DNA of 64,000 nucleotides, taken from the NCBI RefSeq assembly GCF_000172155.1, contig NZ_ABIZ01000001.1:5985105-6049104 (forward strand), read 5' to 3'. The notes under the pieces were generated by a model. The model made no database searches and was not told the origin of the DNA. It was given only the letters and a program-made list of their open reading frames with translations. The translations under genes were made by a program, and so were the position numbers. This DNA is from Verrucomicrobium spinosum DSM 4136 = JCM 18804 (GTDB lineage: Bacteria > Verrucomicrobiota > Verrucomicrobiia > Verrucomicrobiales > Verrucomicrobiaceae). Below, piece by piece: positions 58,303 through 61,453 of the stretch (position 1 is its first letter; each line of letters begins with the position of its first letter).

Positions 58303-58632
58303 GTTCCTTCCTCTGCTTGCTCTTACCCTCCGCATTCCTCGCTGTGGTAAGCGCCCCCATGGATTCGAACCCGGAGGGTTCACCATGAATAGCCATGTGG
58401 TGCAACGAGCGTAGCGAGTGAAACCCATGGAACACGTGGGTCAGAAACTTCTACCGCGGAGCGGTAGGCCATCATCGCAATCAAGCACATCAGGCAGGCG
58501 CTTCCCGCTCAGGGCCTACCGCTCCGAAGCAGCACACTGTTGACGTGATTCCACGGGTTTGGCTCGCTAGACGCCTAGGCTCCTGTGTTTCGGGAGAATG
58601 GAAAATACCAAAATCCGTTTGCACCCCCAACA
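58303..58632. repeat. Intergenic region with REP-like inverted repeats
   Basis: No gene is seen. The stretch has several perfect hairpins. GAACCC-GGA-GGGTTC lies at 58367-58381 and CTACCGC-GGA-GCGGTAG at 58451-58467. A 14-bp sequence at 58457-58470 (CGGAGCGGTAGGCC) recurs as its exact reverse complement at 58513-58526. The arrangement resembles a REP-type element or a small non-autonomous repeat. Whether it occurs elsewhere in the genome cannot be seen from this window. Confidence 0.6.
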
Positions 58633-58651
58633 CACTTTGTGATACAAAGTG
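58633..58651. promoter_or_regulatory. Palindromic operator upstream of the membrane protein gene
   Basis: A perfect 8-3-8 palindrome, CACTTTGT-GAT-ACAAAGTG, ends 5 bp before the ATG at 58657. A site of the same 7-3-7 core geometry precedes ispH (59687-59703). The regulator gene lies between the two sites, so binding by that regulator is the simplest reading. Confidence 0.75.
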
Positions 58652-58656
58652 AACCC

Positions 58657-59334
58657 ATGGCCTCCGCGTCTCCCCATGACACTGCCTTGGAACATCTCCG
58701 GATCATCCGGACGCTGATGGAGCGCTCCCACATCTACCGGGCCGTCTCCGCCCCCGCTGCCTTGATCGGCGGCATCCTGGCGCTCTTCGTCAGCGGCTAT
58801 GGCATCTGGCAGGAGTACCTGCGGGAGGCAGTCACTGGCGGTGATCCCGGTTTTCGCGGGACCCGTTTCCTCGTCGTGTGGCTGGCGCTGCTCGTTCTGG
58901 CCAGCGTCATCAACCTGTTCCTCCTGATGAGGGAATCCAGCGACAAAGGCGAACCGGTTGTCACCGATGGCTTAAAGATGGCGCTCCGAGCCGTCGTGCC
59001 GCCGCTCTTGACCGGTGGCATTCTGGGGATCTGCCTCATCGTCTATGTTCAGCAGATTGAGCTGGCGGCCCTGGTCTGGGTCCTCTGCTACGGACTAGCC
59101 CTCCAGGCTACGGTCAGCTTCGCTCCACGTTCCATCATCCATCTAGCCCGGGCCTTTCTCATCACAGGCCAGGTGCTCACCCTTCTCTGGTTCGCGATGG
59201 GTGGCCCCGGTCTGGCCATCTGGAATGGCGCGGTCGCTTCGGCATTTCTGGGGCTGACGTTTGGCCTCTTTCATGTCATCTATGCCGTGGCCGTCTTCTT
59301 CAAGTCGTCCACCGCCACCGGCCCGCTTGTCTGA
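58657..59334 (+). CDS. Integral membrane protein of unknown function
   Basis: A 225-residue protein with five or six transmembrane helices (about 30-52, 72-95, 113-135, 138-155, 160-182 and 185-210). A short N-terminal helix (ALEHLRIIRTLMERSHIYRA) precedes them. I do not recognise a catalytic motif. It is followed 27 bp later by a winged-helix regulator gene on the same strand, and such a membrane protein/regulator pairing is common, suggesting the membrane protein senses or modifies a signal for it. The ATG at 58657 is used; an upstream in-frame ATG would place the operator inside the gene. Confidence 0.8.
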   Translation: MASASPHDTALEHLRIIRTLMERSHIYRAVSAPAALIGGILALFVSGYGIWQEYLREAVTGGDPGFRGTRFLVVWLALLVLASVINLFLLMRESSDKGEPVVTDGLKMALRAVVPPLLTGGILGICLIVYVQQIELAALVWVLCYGLALQATVSFAPRSIIHLARAFLITGQVLTLLWFAMGGPGLAIWNGAVASAFLGLTFGLFHVIYAVAVFFKSSTATGPLV

Positions 59335-59361
59335 GCCCAGCCCGCCGCCCGCCACGGAATA

Positions 59362-59670
59362 ATGATCGACTTCTCCCAGCTTGACCGCGTCATCCATGAA
59401 AAGGGGCGGCTCGCCATCATGACCGTGCTGGCCTCCCGCAGCCCGCGGGCCTTCCAAGACCTCAAATCTGAACTCGGCATGAGCGATGGCAACCTCATCT
59501 CCCACTTGCGAACCCTGACCAAGGAAGGCTACGTCCGTGAACTCAAAACCACCGCCGCGGACAGCTCACGCCCCTGCACCAGCTACGAGATCTCCGGGGC
59601 CGGGAAGAGCGCCTTCAATGCTTACCTCAAAGTGCTTGAAGCCATCGTGAAGCAATCGCGTCCCTCTTGA
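59362..59670 (+). CDS. Winged-helix transcriptional regulator
   Basis: A 102-residue single-domain winged-helix protein: LDRVIHEKGRLAIMTVLASRSPRAFQDLKSELGMSDGNLISHLRTLTKEGYVRELKTTA with the recognition helix around SDGNLISHLRTL. The wing and a C-terminal dimer helix (FNAYLKVLEAIVKQS) follow. This type (MarR/PadR-related, one wHTH with a short dimer helix) usually represses its own operon. Two matching palindromes flank this gene pair, before the membrane protein gene and before ispH. No ligand-binding domain is present. Confidence 0.88.
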   Translation: MIDFSQLDRVIHEKGRLAIMTVLASRSPRAFQDLKSELGMSDGNLISHLRTLTKEGYVRELKTTAADSSRPCTSYEISGAGKSAFNAYLKVLEAIVKQSRPS

Positions 59671-59686
59671 GTTTTTTTGCCCACTA

Positions 59687-59703
59687 ACTTTGCCACACAA
59701 AGT
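59687..59703. promoter_or_regulatory. Second operator-like palindrome, upstream of ispH
   Basis: ACTTTGC-CAC-ACAAAGT has the same 7-3-7 form as the site before the membrane protein gene, with one mismatch between arms. It lies 17 bp after the regulator stop and 30 bp before the ispH ATG. Confidence 0.65.
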
Positions 59704-59733
59704 AAAACCACCCCCACGAACCCCATCTACAGT

Positions 59734-60624
59734 ATGAACATCACCTTGGCCAAACATCACGGCATGTGCTTCGGCGTCCGCCAGGCCCTGCGCTCTACGC
59801 ACGACGCCGCCAAACGCGGCCCCGTCACCCTGCTGGGCCAACTGGTCCACAATCCTCTGGTGGATGCCCACCTGCGCACCCTTGGGGTACAACAAGGTGC
59901 CTTGGACCGCCCCGGCAGTGCTCCCACTGACGAAGTCATTATCTCCGCTCACGGCGCATCCGACCGCGACAGGTCTGCCTGGAAGGACAAAGGTCATCAA
60001 GTCACAGACACCACCTGCCCCTTAGTCCGCAAGGCCCACGATGCCCTGGCCACCCTGGTGGAAGGTGGCTACTTCCCGGTGGTCATTGGTCAATCCACGC
60101 ACGTGGAAGTAAGAGGACTGGTGGGAGACTTCCCTCATGCCCAAGTCGTGCTGGAAGATAGCGACCTGGATCATCTGCCCCATCATCGCCGCTACGGTGT
60201 CATCAGCCAGACCACCCAGCCCTTGCTTCGCGTGCTCCGCTTGGTGGAGGCGCTAAAACAGCATCATCCCCAGTCGGAAGTGCGCTTTGTGGACACCGTT
60301 TGCCACCCGACCAAACAGCGTCAGAGCGCCTTGGAAGACCTGTGCCGGAAGTGCGAGGTCATCATCGTGGTCGGCGGTCGTAACAGCAACAACACCCGCC
60401 AGCTCACAGAAGCTGCCCGCCAACTTGGCTGCACCGCCCACCAGATCGAGCGTCCCTCAGAGATCGACCCCGCCTGGTTTTCGCAAGGGCAGGAAGTCGG
60501 TGTGACGGCTGGCACCTCCACCCTGGACGAGACCGTTCGCGAGGTGGTGGACCGCCTGAAGAGCATCGCCGCAGAGCTCCCCCAACCCGGCCTCTTCCAA
60601 GGTTTGCTGAGGCAGAAAAGCTGA
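59734..60624 (+). CDS. ispH: 4-hydroxy-3-methylbut-2-enyl diphosphate reductase
   Basis: A 296-residue IspH, the last enzyme of the non-mevalonate isoprenoid pathway, making IPP and DMAPP with a 4Fe-4S cluster. The three cluster cysteines are Cys12 in HHGMCFGV, Cys95 in DTTCPLV and Cys190 in DTVCHPTKQRQ. VVGGRNSNNTRQL, VGVTAGTSTLDETV and SAHGA blocks are also present. The ATG at 59734 (MNITLAKHHG) gives the standard N-terminus. It is downstream of the winged-helix regulator with an operator-like site between. Confidence 0.95.
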   Translation: MNITLAKHHGMCFGVRQALRSTHDAAKRGPVTLLGQLVHNPLVDAHLRTLGVQQGALDRPGSAPTDEVIISAHGASDRDRSAWKDKGHQVTDTTCPLVRKAHDALATLVEGGYFPVVIGQSTHVEVRGLVGDFPHAQVVLEDSDLDHLPHHRRYGVISQTTQPLLRVLRLVEALKQHHPQSEVRFVDTVCHPTKQRQSALEDLCRKCEVIIVVGGRNSNNTRQLTEAARQLGCTAHQIERPSEIDPAWFSQGQEVGVTAGTSTLDETVREVVDRLKSIAAELPQPGLFQGLLRQKS

Positions 60625-60664: not shown

Positions 60665-61453
60665 ATGAACATTCCCAGCTGGATCCAGTACTTCGAACGC
60701 AATCGCTCCAACTTTGATGAACCTCCGCTCGCCCCGGACGCAAGCCCGCTACCCGATGGCCTGCGCCTGCCTCTGGCCGCCTCACTGGCCGTTTTCCAGC
60801 TTGGCGAAACCGGCGGTGGCACCCGTCTCATGCGTTACGTAAGACGAACCCTCCGCCACCAACCGGAAGCTCTTGAGGGGTACGACCTGGCGGTGCGCCT
60901 GTTCATAGCAGAGGAACATCGCCACGCCCAGCTGTTGGAAAAGCTGGTGACCTACCTCGGCGGCACCTTGTTGCAGAGGCACTGGTCAAACACCATCTTC
61001 CGGCGTCTCCGCACCCTTTTCGGCATGGAGTTCAATATTCAGATCCTGCTTACTGCCGAACTCATCGCCGAGGCTTACTACGGCCTGATTTACCGAAAGA
61101 CCACCGATGAGGAGGTCAGGTCATGCTGCCATAAAATCCTACAGGACGAAATGCGCCACATTGCCTTCCACACCAGCTTTTTCCAGCAGCGGCTCACTAG
61201 CATGCCCCGCCCGCTCCGTAAAATGTGGCGCGTGGGCTTCAGAGCATGCCATGCCATCACCGCCACCATCGTGGCCTGGGATCACCGTCGGCTCTTGAAA
61301 TCTCTGGGCATTGGCCAAGGGGAATTCGTCCGGCTTACCCTGAAGGCTGGACAACGCTTCCTCCGACGGCTTGACTCTCGCTCCTCTTCCTGGCAGCCTG
61401 ACATTTCTTTGCGTTCCTGCCAAAAAGCTTCGCAACTTGCCACCCCCCGCTAA
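60665..61453 (+). CDS. Ferritin-like diiron protein
   Basis: A 262-residue helical protein with a ferritin-like diiron site: LFIAEEHRHAQLLEKL (E...ExxH), LTAELIAEAYYGLI (Glu) and ILQDEMRHIAFHTSFF (ExxH). These are the metal ligands of a four-helix diiron oxygenase or oxidase. The C-terminal 80 residues are basic and less regular. The substrate is not known; some relatives act on lipids or aldehydes. It follows ispH by 40 bp on the same strand and may be co-transcribed, so a role with isoprenoids or membrane lipids is possible. Confidence 0.75.
   Translation: MNIPSWIQYFERNRSNFDEPPLAPDASPLPDGLRLPLAASLAVFQLGETGGGTRLMRYVRRTLRHQPEALEGYDLAVRLFIAEEHRHAQLLEKLVTYLGGTLLQRHWSNTIFRRLRTLFGMEFNIQILLTAELIAEAYYGLIYRKTTDEEVRSCCHKILQDEMRHIAFHTSFFQQRLTSMPRPLRKMWRVGFRACHAITATIVAWDHRRLLKSLGIGQGEFVRLTLKAGQRFLRRLDSRSSSWQPDISLRSCQKASQLATPR

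Follow-up and report, generated by a model that had tools for sequence, protein, structure and literature searches.

An operator pair and its winged-helix regulator form a widely conserved, predicted isoprenoid-linked regulon in Verrucomicrobiota

Here we describe a pair of palindromic sites that appears to tie a small winged-helix regulator to an isoprenoid gene, in a 64,000-nucleotide stretch of the Verrucomicrobium spinosum DSM 4136 genome (the whole of the DNA analysed, hereafter the window) and in its relatives. In the reading we favour, and regard as likely, an autoregulated winged-helix repressor tunes isoprenoid supply, a membrane protein encoded with it is its probable signal partner, and the same module drives mvaS in relatives that use the mevalonate route. 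Sequence comparison indicates that the isoprenoid-linked regulon is real and widely conserved, and that its regulator is of a known kind (Table 1).

Table 1. Positions of the module's genes and putative operators within the window
Feature	Coordinates	Strand	Match or remark
Putative operator O1, ACTTTGTGATACAAAGT	58634-58650	.	Perfect palindrome; presumed autoregulatory site
Six-helix membrane protein (225 aa), candidate signal partner of the regulator	58657..59334	+	No Pfam match above cut-off
Winged-helix regulator, 102 aa, PF13601 HTH_34	59362..59670	+	65.3 bits, gathering cut-off 27
Putative operator O2, ACTTTGCCACACAAAGT	59687-59703	.	Palindrome with one mismatch
ispH2, IspH/LytB reductase	59734..60624	+	TIGR00216 230.2 bits, cut-off 187.85
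Ferritin-like diiron protein after ispH2	60665..61453	+	AurF 32.3 bits, cut-off 29.6

The preliminary description of this DNA had placed a first palindrome at 58633, 5 bp before a membrane protein/regulator operon. The palindrome exists, but it starts one base later and its end lies 6 bp from the ATG of the membrane-protein gene. The second palindrome, with one change, was found as described, 30 bp before the ispH ATG at 59734, and the regulator gene does lie between the two sites. O2 is preceded by a conserved T-tract (59672-59678). Matches to the palindrome with up to three mismatches occur five times in the window, against 0.84 expected, and none of 100 shuffles reached five. Over the whole genome (8,220,857 bp, one contig), no sites other than O1 and O2 have at most one mismatch, and a further eight have two. 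A third strict site in the V. spinosum genome (G000:C1:3329032) lies between convergent gene ends and was judged to be chance; no convincing third site was found in this genome, leaving only the two module sites. In 80 loci of relatives, sites with at most one mismatch occurred at 1.43 per kb from -900 to +700 around the regulator, 44-fold above the 0.032 per kb found in their flanking DNA.

A scan for sigma-70 promoter patterns at the O1/O2 locus gave no strong match that would place a promoter over the operator. A Bacteroidetes-type -33/-7 promoter was considered, since TAnnTTTG overlaps the operator, but the upstream TTTG does not stand at the right distance, and the idea was dropped. Between deoC and the membrane-protein gene (window 58440-58560) lie inverted copies of a CTACCGC/AGCGGTAG-type sequence, possibly a REP-like element.

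The regulator has the HTH_34 domain over its full length (residues 16-96, profile positions 2-80 of 80), as does PH1061 (1ub9), its best match in the PDB and closest solved structure. Invariant residues in the helix-turn-helix region are D42-G43-N44-L45, H48, R50 and L52. The protein also passes the HTH_5 domain PF01022 (35.8 bits versus 22), and falls below the cut-offs for ArsR/SmtB NF033788 (26.6 bits, cut-off 55), SufR TIGR02702 (23.1 bits, cut-off 178.8) and the MarR domain (14.4 bits, cut-off 24.6). Its single cysteine is not kept in relatives. In many of these, the membrane-protein gene and the regulator start codon overlap by 4 bp. We know of no operator or regulon for the HTH_34 group, and a search of 5.39 million open-access papers turned up none naming HTH_34 or PF13601. 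We infer that the HTH_34 protein is the binder, because its gene sits beside or between the sites, and because the sites are scarce in genomes that lack it.

The module is strongly conserved. The regulator was found in 82 of 143 relatives at the default threshold, and 80 regulator genomes remain once a remote paralogue and a pseudogene (G077) are left out. Gene order is nearly everywhere the same: site, membrane protein, HTH_34 regulator, site, ispH and, often, the diiron protein. ispH lies downstream in 109 of 119 distinct regulator loci, and in 105 of these 109 a CTTTG-N5-CAAAG site, counted with at most one mismatch, falls within 200 bp upstream of it. A motif search beside homologous regulators in Verrucomicrobiota, proposed as a check in the preliminary description, thus bears the pairing out. 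Over the 119 loci, the ispH site lies a median of 28 bp upstream of the gene, a conserved T-tract being found 8-14 bp ahead of the site, and the membrane-gene site ends a median of 6 bp before the start. Bases flanking the site are far less conserved, except that the palindrome itself is extended (T at -2, A at +18); the core columns of this profile are biased by the selection for at most one mismatch, which leaves the site counts unaffected. Four loci lack an ispH site: L084 is truncated; in L249 and L283 the IspH match is weak and partial, and different genes lie downstream; and L254 is a real exception, in which the module and ispH2 are present and no site precedes ispH2.

Among 84,980 species genomes scanned, 287 relatives turned up, and the best 80 of these 287 all carried Verrucomicrobiota-type labels save one, labelled Bacteroidetes. 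The module, with sites in the same two places, occurs across the order Verrucomicrobiales and in metagenome-assembled genomes labelled Chthoniobacteraceae and Methylacidiphilaceae; in some genomes the membrane gene is preceded by two sites spaced 33-35 bp apart.

Regulator and ispH2 are present or missing together in nearly all genomes. Both are present in 79 of the 143 genomes, both are absent from 62, and the two disagree in only two genomes, one each way (Fisher p 2e-38, a value overstated by the relatedness of the genomes, although the absences occur in several genera and families). Both exceptions retain remnants: in G052 the regulator is truncated and ispH is a fragment, and G121 keeps the regulator 3' end. 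Regulator-less genomes mostly have no strict site, and the counts seen in the Akkermansia-like groups g12 and g13 and others, mostly zero to two per genome, we read as background; G126 and G117 have three each despite lacking the regulator. At L103 (G126:C56:10501-10833), three strict palindromes exactly 158 bp apart are likely to be a tandem repeat and not operators. In G077 (L085/L179) the regulator gene is interrupted by TGA, and the genome is without ispH2 and without a strict operator: a natural loss of the entire system. The proposal that the two sites mark one regulon gains from this pattern, the operator pair being kept with the regulator over the order and sites tracking its presence.

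Could O2 be a mere echo of the regulator gene, belonging to its read-through or termination and doing nothing at ispH2? Its place shortly past the regulator stop codon, after a T-tract, would fit. However, the site travels with ispH. In L278 and L279 ispH begins at +1224 from the regulator and the site at +1204, and in L290 the values are +636 and +616, so that the site stays 20 bp before ispH and not behind the regulator. Where an ispH homologue lies elsewhere in the genome (G116, G140), two sites stand upstream of it, and in G112 ispH is on another contig, again with two sites. Terminator prediction at O2 also found none there. The echo reading is therefore already contradicted, and we give it very little credence. 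The control of ispH had been called local, which holds for the adjacent genes of the window but is incomplete, given the unlinked ispH genes with two operators in G116 and G140.

The gene after O2 encodes an IspH by the TIGR00216 equivalog cut-off. Its product matches the IspH structure 3dnf (E 3.6e-47) and retains 11 of 11 checked active-site residues, including the three Fe-S cysteines, E126, H41, H74 and H124. It is not the only one, for an unlinked housekeeping ispH of about 430 aa lies outside the window at G000:C1:6151337-6152365, and relatives likewise carry another, longer IspH (about 430 aa) elsewhere. No strict operator was found in the 4 kb fetched around the housekeeping ispH of the window's genome. 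In an IQ-TREE tree, the regulated copies fall on one side of a branch with 100/99 support, apart from the housekeeping copies. By these comparisons the window ispH is a second, accessory, regulated paralogue. The preliminary description was thus right about IspH and too broad in speaking of control over the last step of isoprenoid synthesis, which the housekeeping gene also serves.

In the Akkermansiaceae-type family (f2), the regulated IspH has degenerated. Seven copies retain at most one of the three cysteines and have lost most of the histidines, five of them downstream of the regulator (L247, L252, L258, L264, L277) and two unlinked from it (L175:3524-4345, L176:2303-3088). The regulated copies of G116 and G125 score 94 and 84 bits, below the TIGR00216 cut-off. 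The f2 proteins still match IspH structures (E 5e-10), and their genes keep two operator sites upstream. They are probably a family of IspH pseudoenzymes under two operator sites and, since the f2 copy has lost Fe-S ligands and keeps two operators, the switch there would govern an apparent pseudoenzyme.

The membrane protein had been described as unknown, and it remained without a Pfam family above cut-off and without a PDB match: the fold search gave nothing with E <= 0.001, and among HMMs only DUF1422 appeared, below threshold. Its AlphaFold2 model (pLDDT 90) has six helices, with a long N-terminal one (6-60). It represents a conserved family in relatives, and 34 of the 39 distant regulator loci fetched have a same-strand homologue upstream. 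Because it is co-encoded with the regulator throughout the order and at these distant loci, we infer that the six-helix protein is probably its signal partner.

The diiron protein is probably a co-regulated gene. Its invariant residues are E83/E84/H87, E132 and E162/H165, and its model (pLDDT 89) resembles aldehyde-deformylating oxygenase and R2-like oxidase folds. The gene follows ispH2 in many relatives and is missing from many modules. In L069/L273 an extra operator site lies between ispH2 and the diiron gene.

More distant genomes of the phylum take the module to a different pathway. In a sample of 288 genomes, 48 had a regulator of the window's HTH_34 kind; scores alone do not make these distant-class regulators orthologues, as a paralogue in G001 scores equally high, and they are tied to the window family by the upstream membrane gene and the operator. 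Eighteen of the distant regulator genomes have an HMG-CoA synthase above cut-off and no ispH, and in the rest the situation is reversed, with ispH present and no HMG-CoA synthase reaching the cut-off. In 11 of the 18 mevalonate genomes, from four families (f26, f43, f46, f59), mvaS directly follows the regulator, and all 11 products exceed the TIGR01835 cut-off of 360.35 (459-499 bits). In five of them a perfect site lies 43-66 bp ahead of mvaS (L301, L304, L313, L316, L320); in the other six, a site with zero or one mismatch precedes the membrane gene, and with it the whole operon, mvaS lying close behind the regulator (L302, L306, L307, L310, L314, L328). Two further genes have a site: a second mvaS in G312, with one mismatch at -62, and the only ispH of G194, which is unlinked and has a perfect site at -180. 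For the remaining unlinked mvaS and sole ispH genes checked in distant regulator genomes, no site with at most one mismatch was found, and some distant modules stand ahead of genes for membrane proteins or for a B12 radical-SAM protein. As judged from site positions, isoprenoid supply is a recurrent, not universal, target of the regulator family.

These mevalonate loci bear on the suggestion that the system is an oxidative or Fe-S damage switch, with IspH2 a spare for oxygen-damaged housekeeping IspH and the diiron protein handling oxygen. IspH is an oxygen-sensitive [4Fe-4S] enzyme (PMC8837944), and the diiron protein stands behind ispH2 in many relatives. Yet the same module has mvaS, which encodes a non-Fe-S enzyme, in its charge in mevalonate relatives; the only cysteine of the regulator is unconserved, and the protein falls far below SufR and metalloregulator cut-offs; and many modules do without the diiron gene. 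We consider such a switch improbable.

Other targets suggest a wider regulon. The preliminary description had proposed one regulon of two promoters, which holds in the window's genome, whereas in many relatives it extends to a membrane operon, to polysaccharide-export-type genes (in one family) and to mvaS. The membrane operon, of two genes, is preceded by sites in Prosthecobacter-like genomes and others. It has tandem or single sites in 15 of 24 regulator genomes versus one of six without the regulator (Fisher p = 0.07, a weak contrast, in which the sole regulator-less genome with a site is a fragmented assembly).

Several further loci are recorded here as observations. L360, L361, L362, L364 and L365, from several Prosthecobacter-like genomes, have a pair of palindromes around position 1501, spaced exactly 22 bp with a 5-bp gap, before the membrane operon, and similar membrane genes, judged by eye, lie beside the regulator in L296, L298, L303 and L312 (distant classes). 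In f2, operators occur near short export-type proteins (L123, L124, L127 and L128; G140, G116, G136), again judged by eye except for L128, whose protein matches TIGR03027 (PEP-CTERM exopolysaccharide export) at 47 bits, below cut-off. In L126 a site lies 7 bp before a Wzz-like membrane protein without a family match. In G088 the product of L133:1382-2788 is the inner-membrane protein CreD (492 bits), and two operators lie some 145-180 bp ahead of its gene. CreD-like readings of L201, L203, L214 and L297 were unconfirmed (L297 has no Pfam family), leaving L133 the only CreD. The label 'phytol kinase' for the gene after the L295 site found no Pfam or NCBIfam match and was dropped.

Such sites raise the alternative of an envelope or membrane-stress switch, whose main targets would be membrane proteins and polysaccharide export, with isoprenoid genes drawn in through the need for undecaprenyl phosphate. 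Sites before the membrane operon, CreD and the polysaccharide-export-type proteins of relatives speak for it, and SigM with YhdLK in Bacillus subtilis is a precedent (PMC11081497). On the other side, the window's own genome is convincing only at the two module sites, and the isoprenoid link is the most conserved target. We regard this alternative as a serious possibility, though below even chances; it is largely compatible with a repressor of isoprenoid supply and differs mainly in the signal.

How might an isoprenoid repressor work? The 102-aa HTH_34 protein, as a dimer, would bind RCTTTGY-N3-RCAAAGY before its own operon and before ispH2, most likely repressing both promoters and so autoregulating. 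A shortage of an isoprenoid precursor or a polyprenyl membrane lipid would lift repression, and IspH2, with the diiron protein behind it, would then raise precursor supply, the membrane protein acting as probable sensor or signal partner. In mevalonate relatives, the same module would drive HMG-CoA synthase in place of ispH2. An isoprenoid lipid or precursor is the presumed signal, and none of the sequence features at the locus indicates it. We hold as tentative, and rather doubtful, the extended version in which a phylum-wide pair senses a polyprenyl lipid and controls supply by ispH2 or mvaS, the Akkermansiaceae-type target being a dead IspH with a binding or sensing role.

Repression, rather than activation, is suggested by the place of O1 right against the start codon, where a roadblock repressor would be expected to sit. 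The regulator could instead be an activator at ispH2, and either repressor or activator at its own promoter. An activator could use the position of O2 (median 28 bp upstream of the start, with the T-tract 8-14 bp further), and the paired sites 33-35 bp apart before the membrane gene could allow different effects. However, a median of 6 bp from the end of O1 to the start, and other operators at or inside the start region, suit blocking, and most small winged-helix dimers of this single-domain type are repressors. We therefore think activation unlikely.

To our knowledge, dedicated transcriptional control of bacterial isoprenoid precursor synthesis is poorly known, and a search of the open-access literature on HTH_34, ispH regulation and mevalonate in Verrucomicrobiota found no prior description of this system. 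The best isoprenoid-sensing case found for comparison is SigM with YhdLK, a proposed monitor of undecaprenyl phosphate that controls ispD and ispF, is induced by IspH depletion and, as stated there, occurs only in B. subtilis and its close relatives (PMC11081497). It too joins a membrane partner to a transcription factor acting on isoprenoid genes. In contrast to the winged-helix protein and the six-helix membrane protein without a known fold match described here, SigM is an alternative sigma factor with membrane anti-sigma partners. CrtR of Corynebacterium glutamicum, a GGPP-responsive carotenoid repressor whose binding is relieved by isoprenoid pyrophosphates, is likewise a small autoregulated regulator that represses an isoprenoid operon beside its own gene (PMC7432914). 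It differs in being of the MarR type, in acting on GGPP-to-carotenoid genes and not on IspH or HMG-CoA synthase, in its divergent arrangement, and in having no conserved membrane partner encoded with it. The window regulator belongs to neither the SigM nor the CrtR family. For duplicated IspH, as in V. spinosum, there is the LytB1/LytB2 pair of Mycobacterium tuberculosis, of which one is essential and the other non-redundant despite all described critical residues (PMC4550268). The abstract of that study mentions no dedicated regulator or shared operator, whereas the window copy is tied to its regulator over a whole order.

The surprising parts of the system are the pathway switch and the probable IspH pseudoenzyme. 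Since one regulator and operator stay tied to isoprenoid supply while the pathway differs (ispH2 or mvaS), it would appear to control supply and not a particular enzyme. An unnamed membrane-protein family and its HTH_34 regulator thereby gain a hypothesis of function, and the regulon suggests why Verrucomicrobiales may keep a second ispH.
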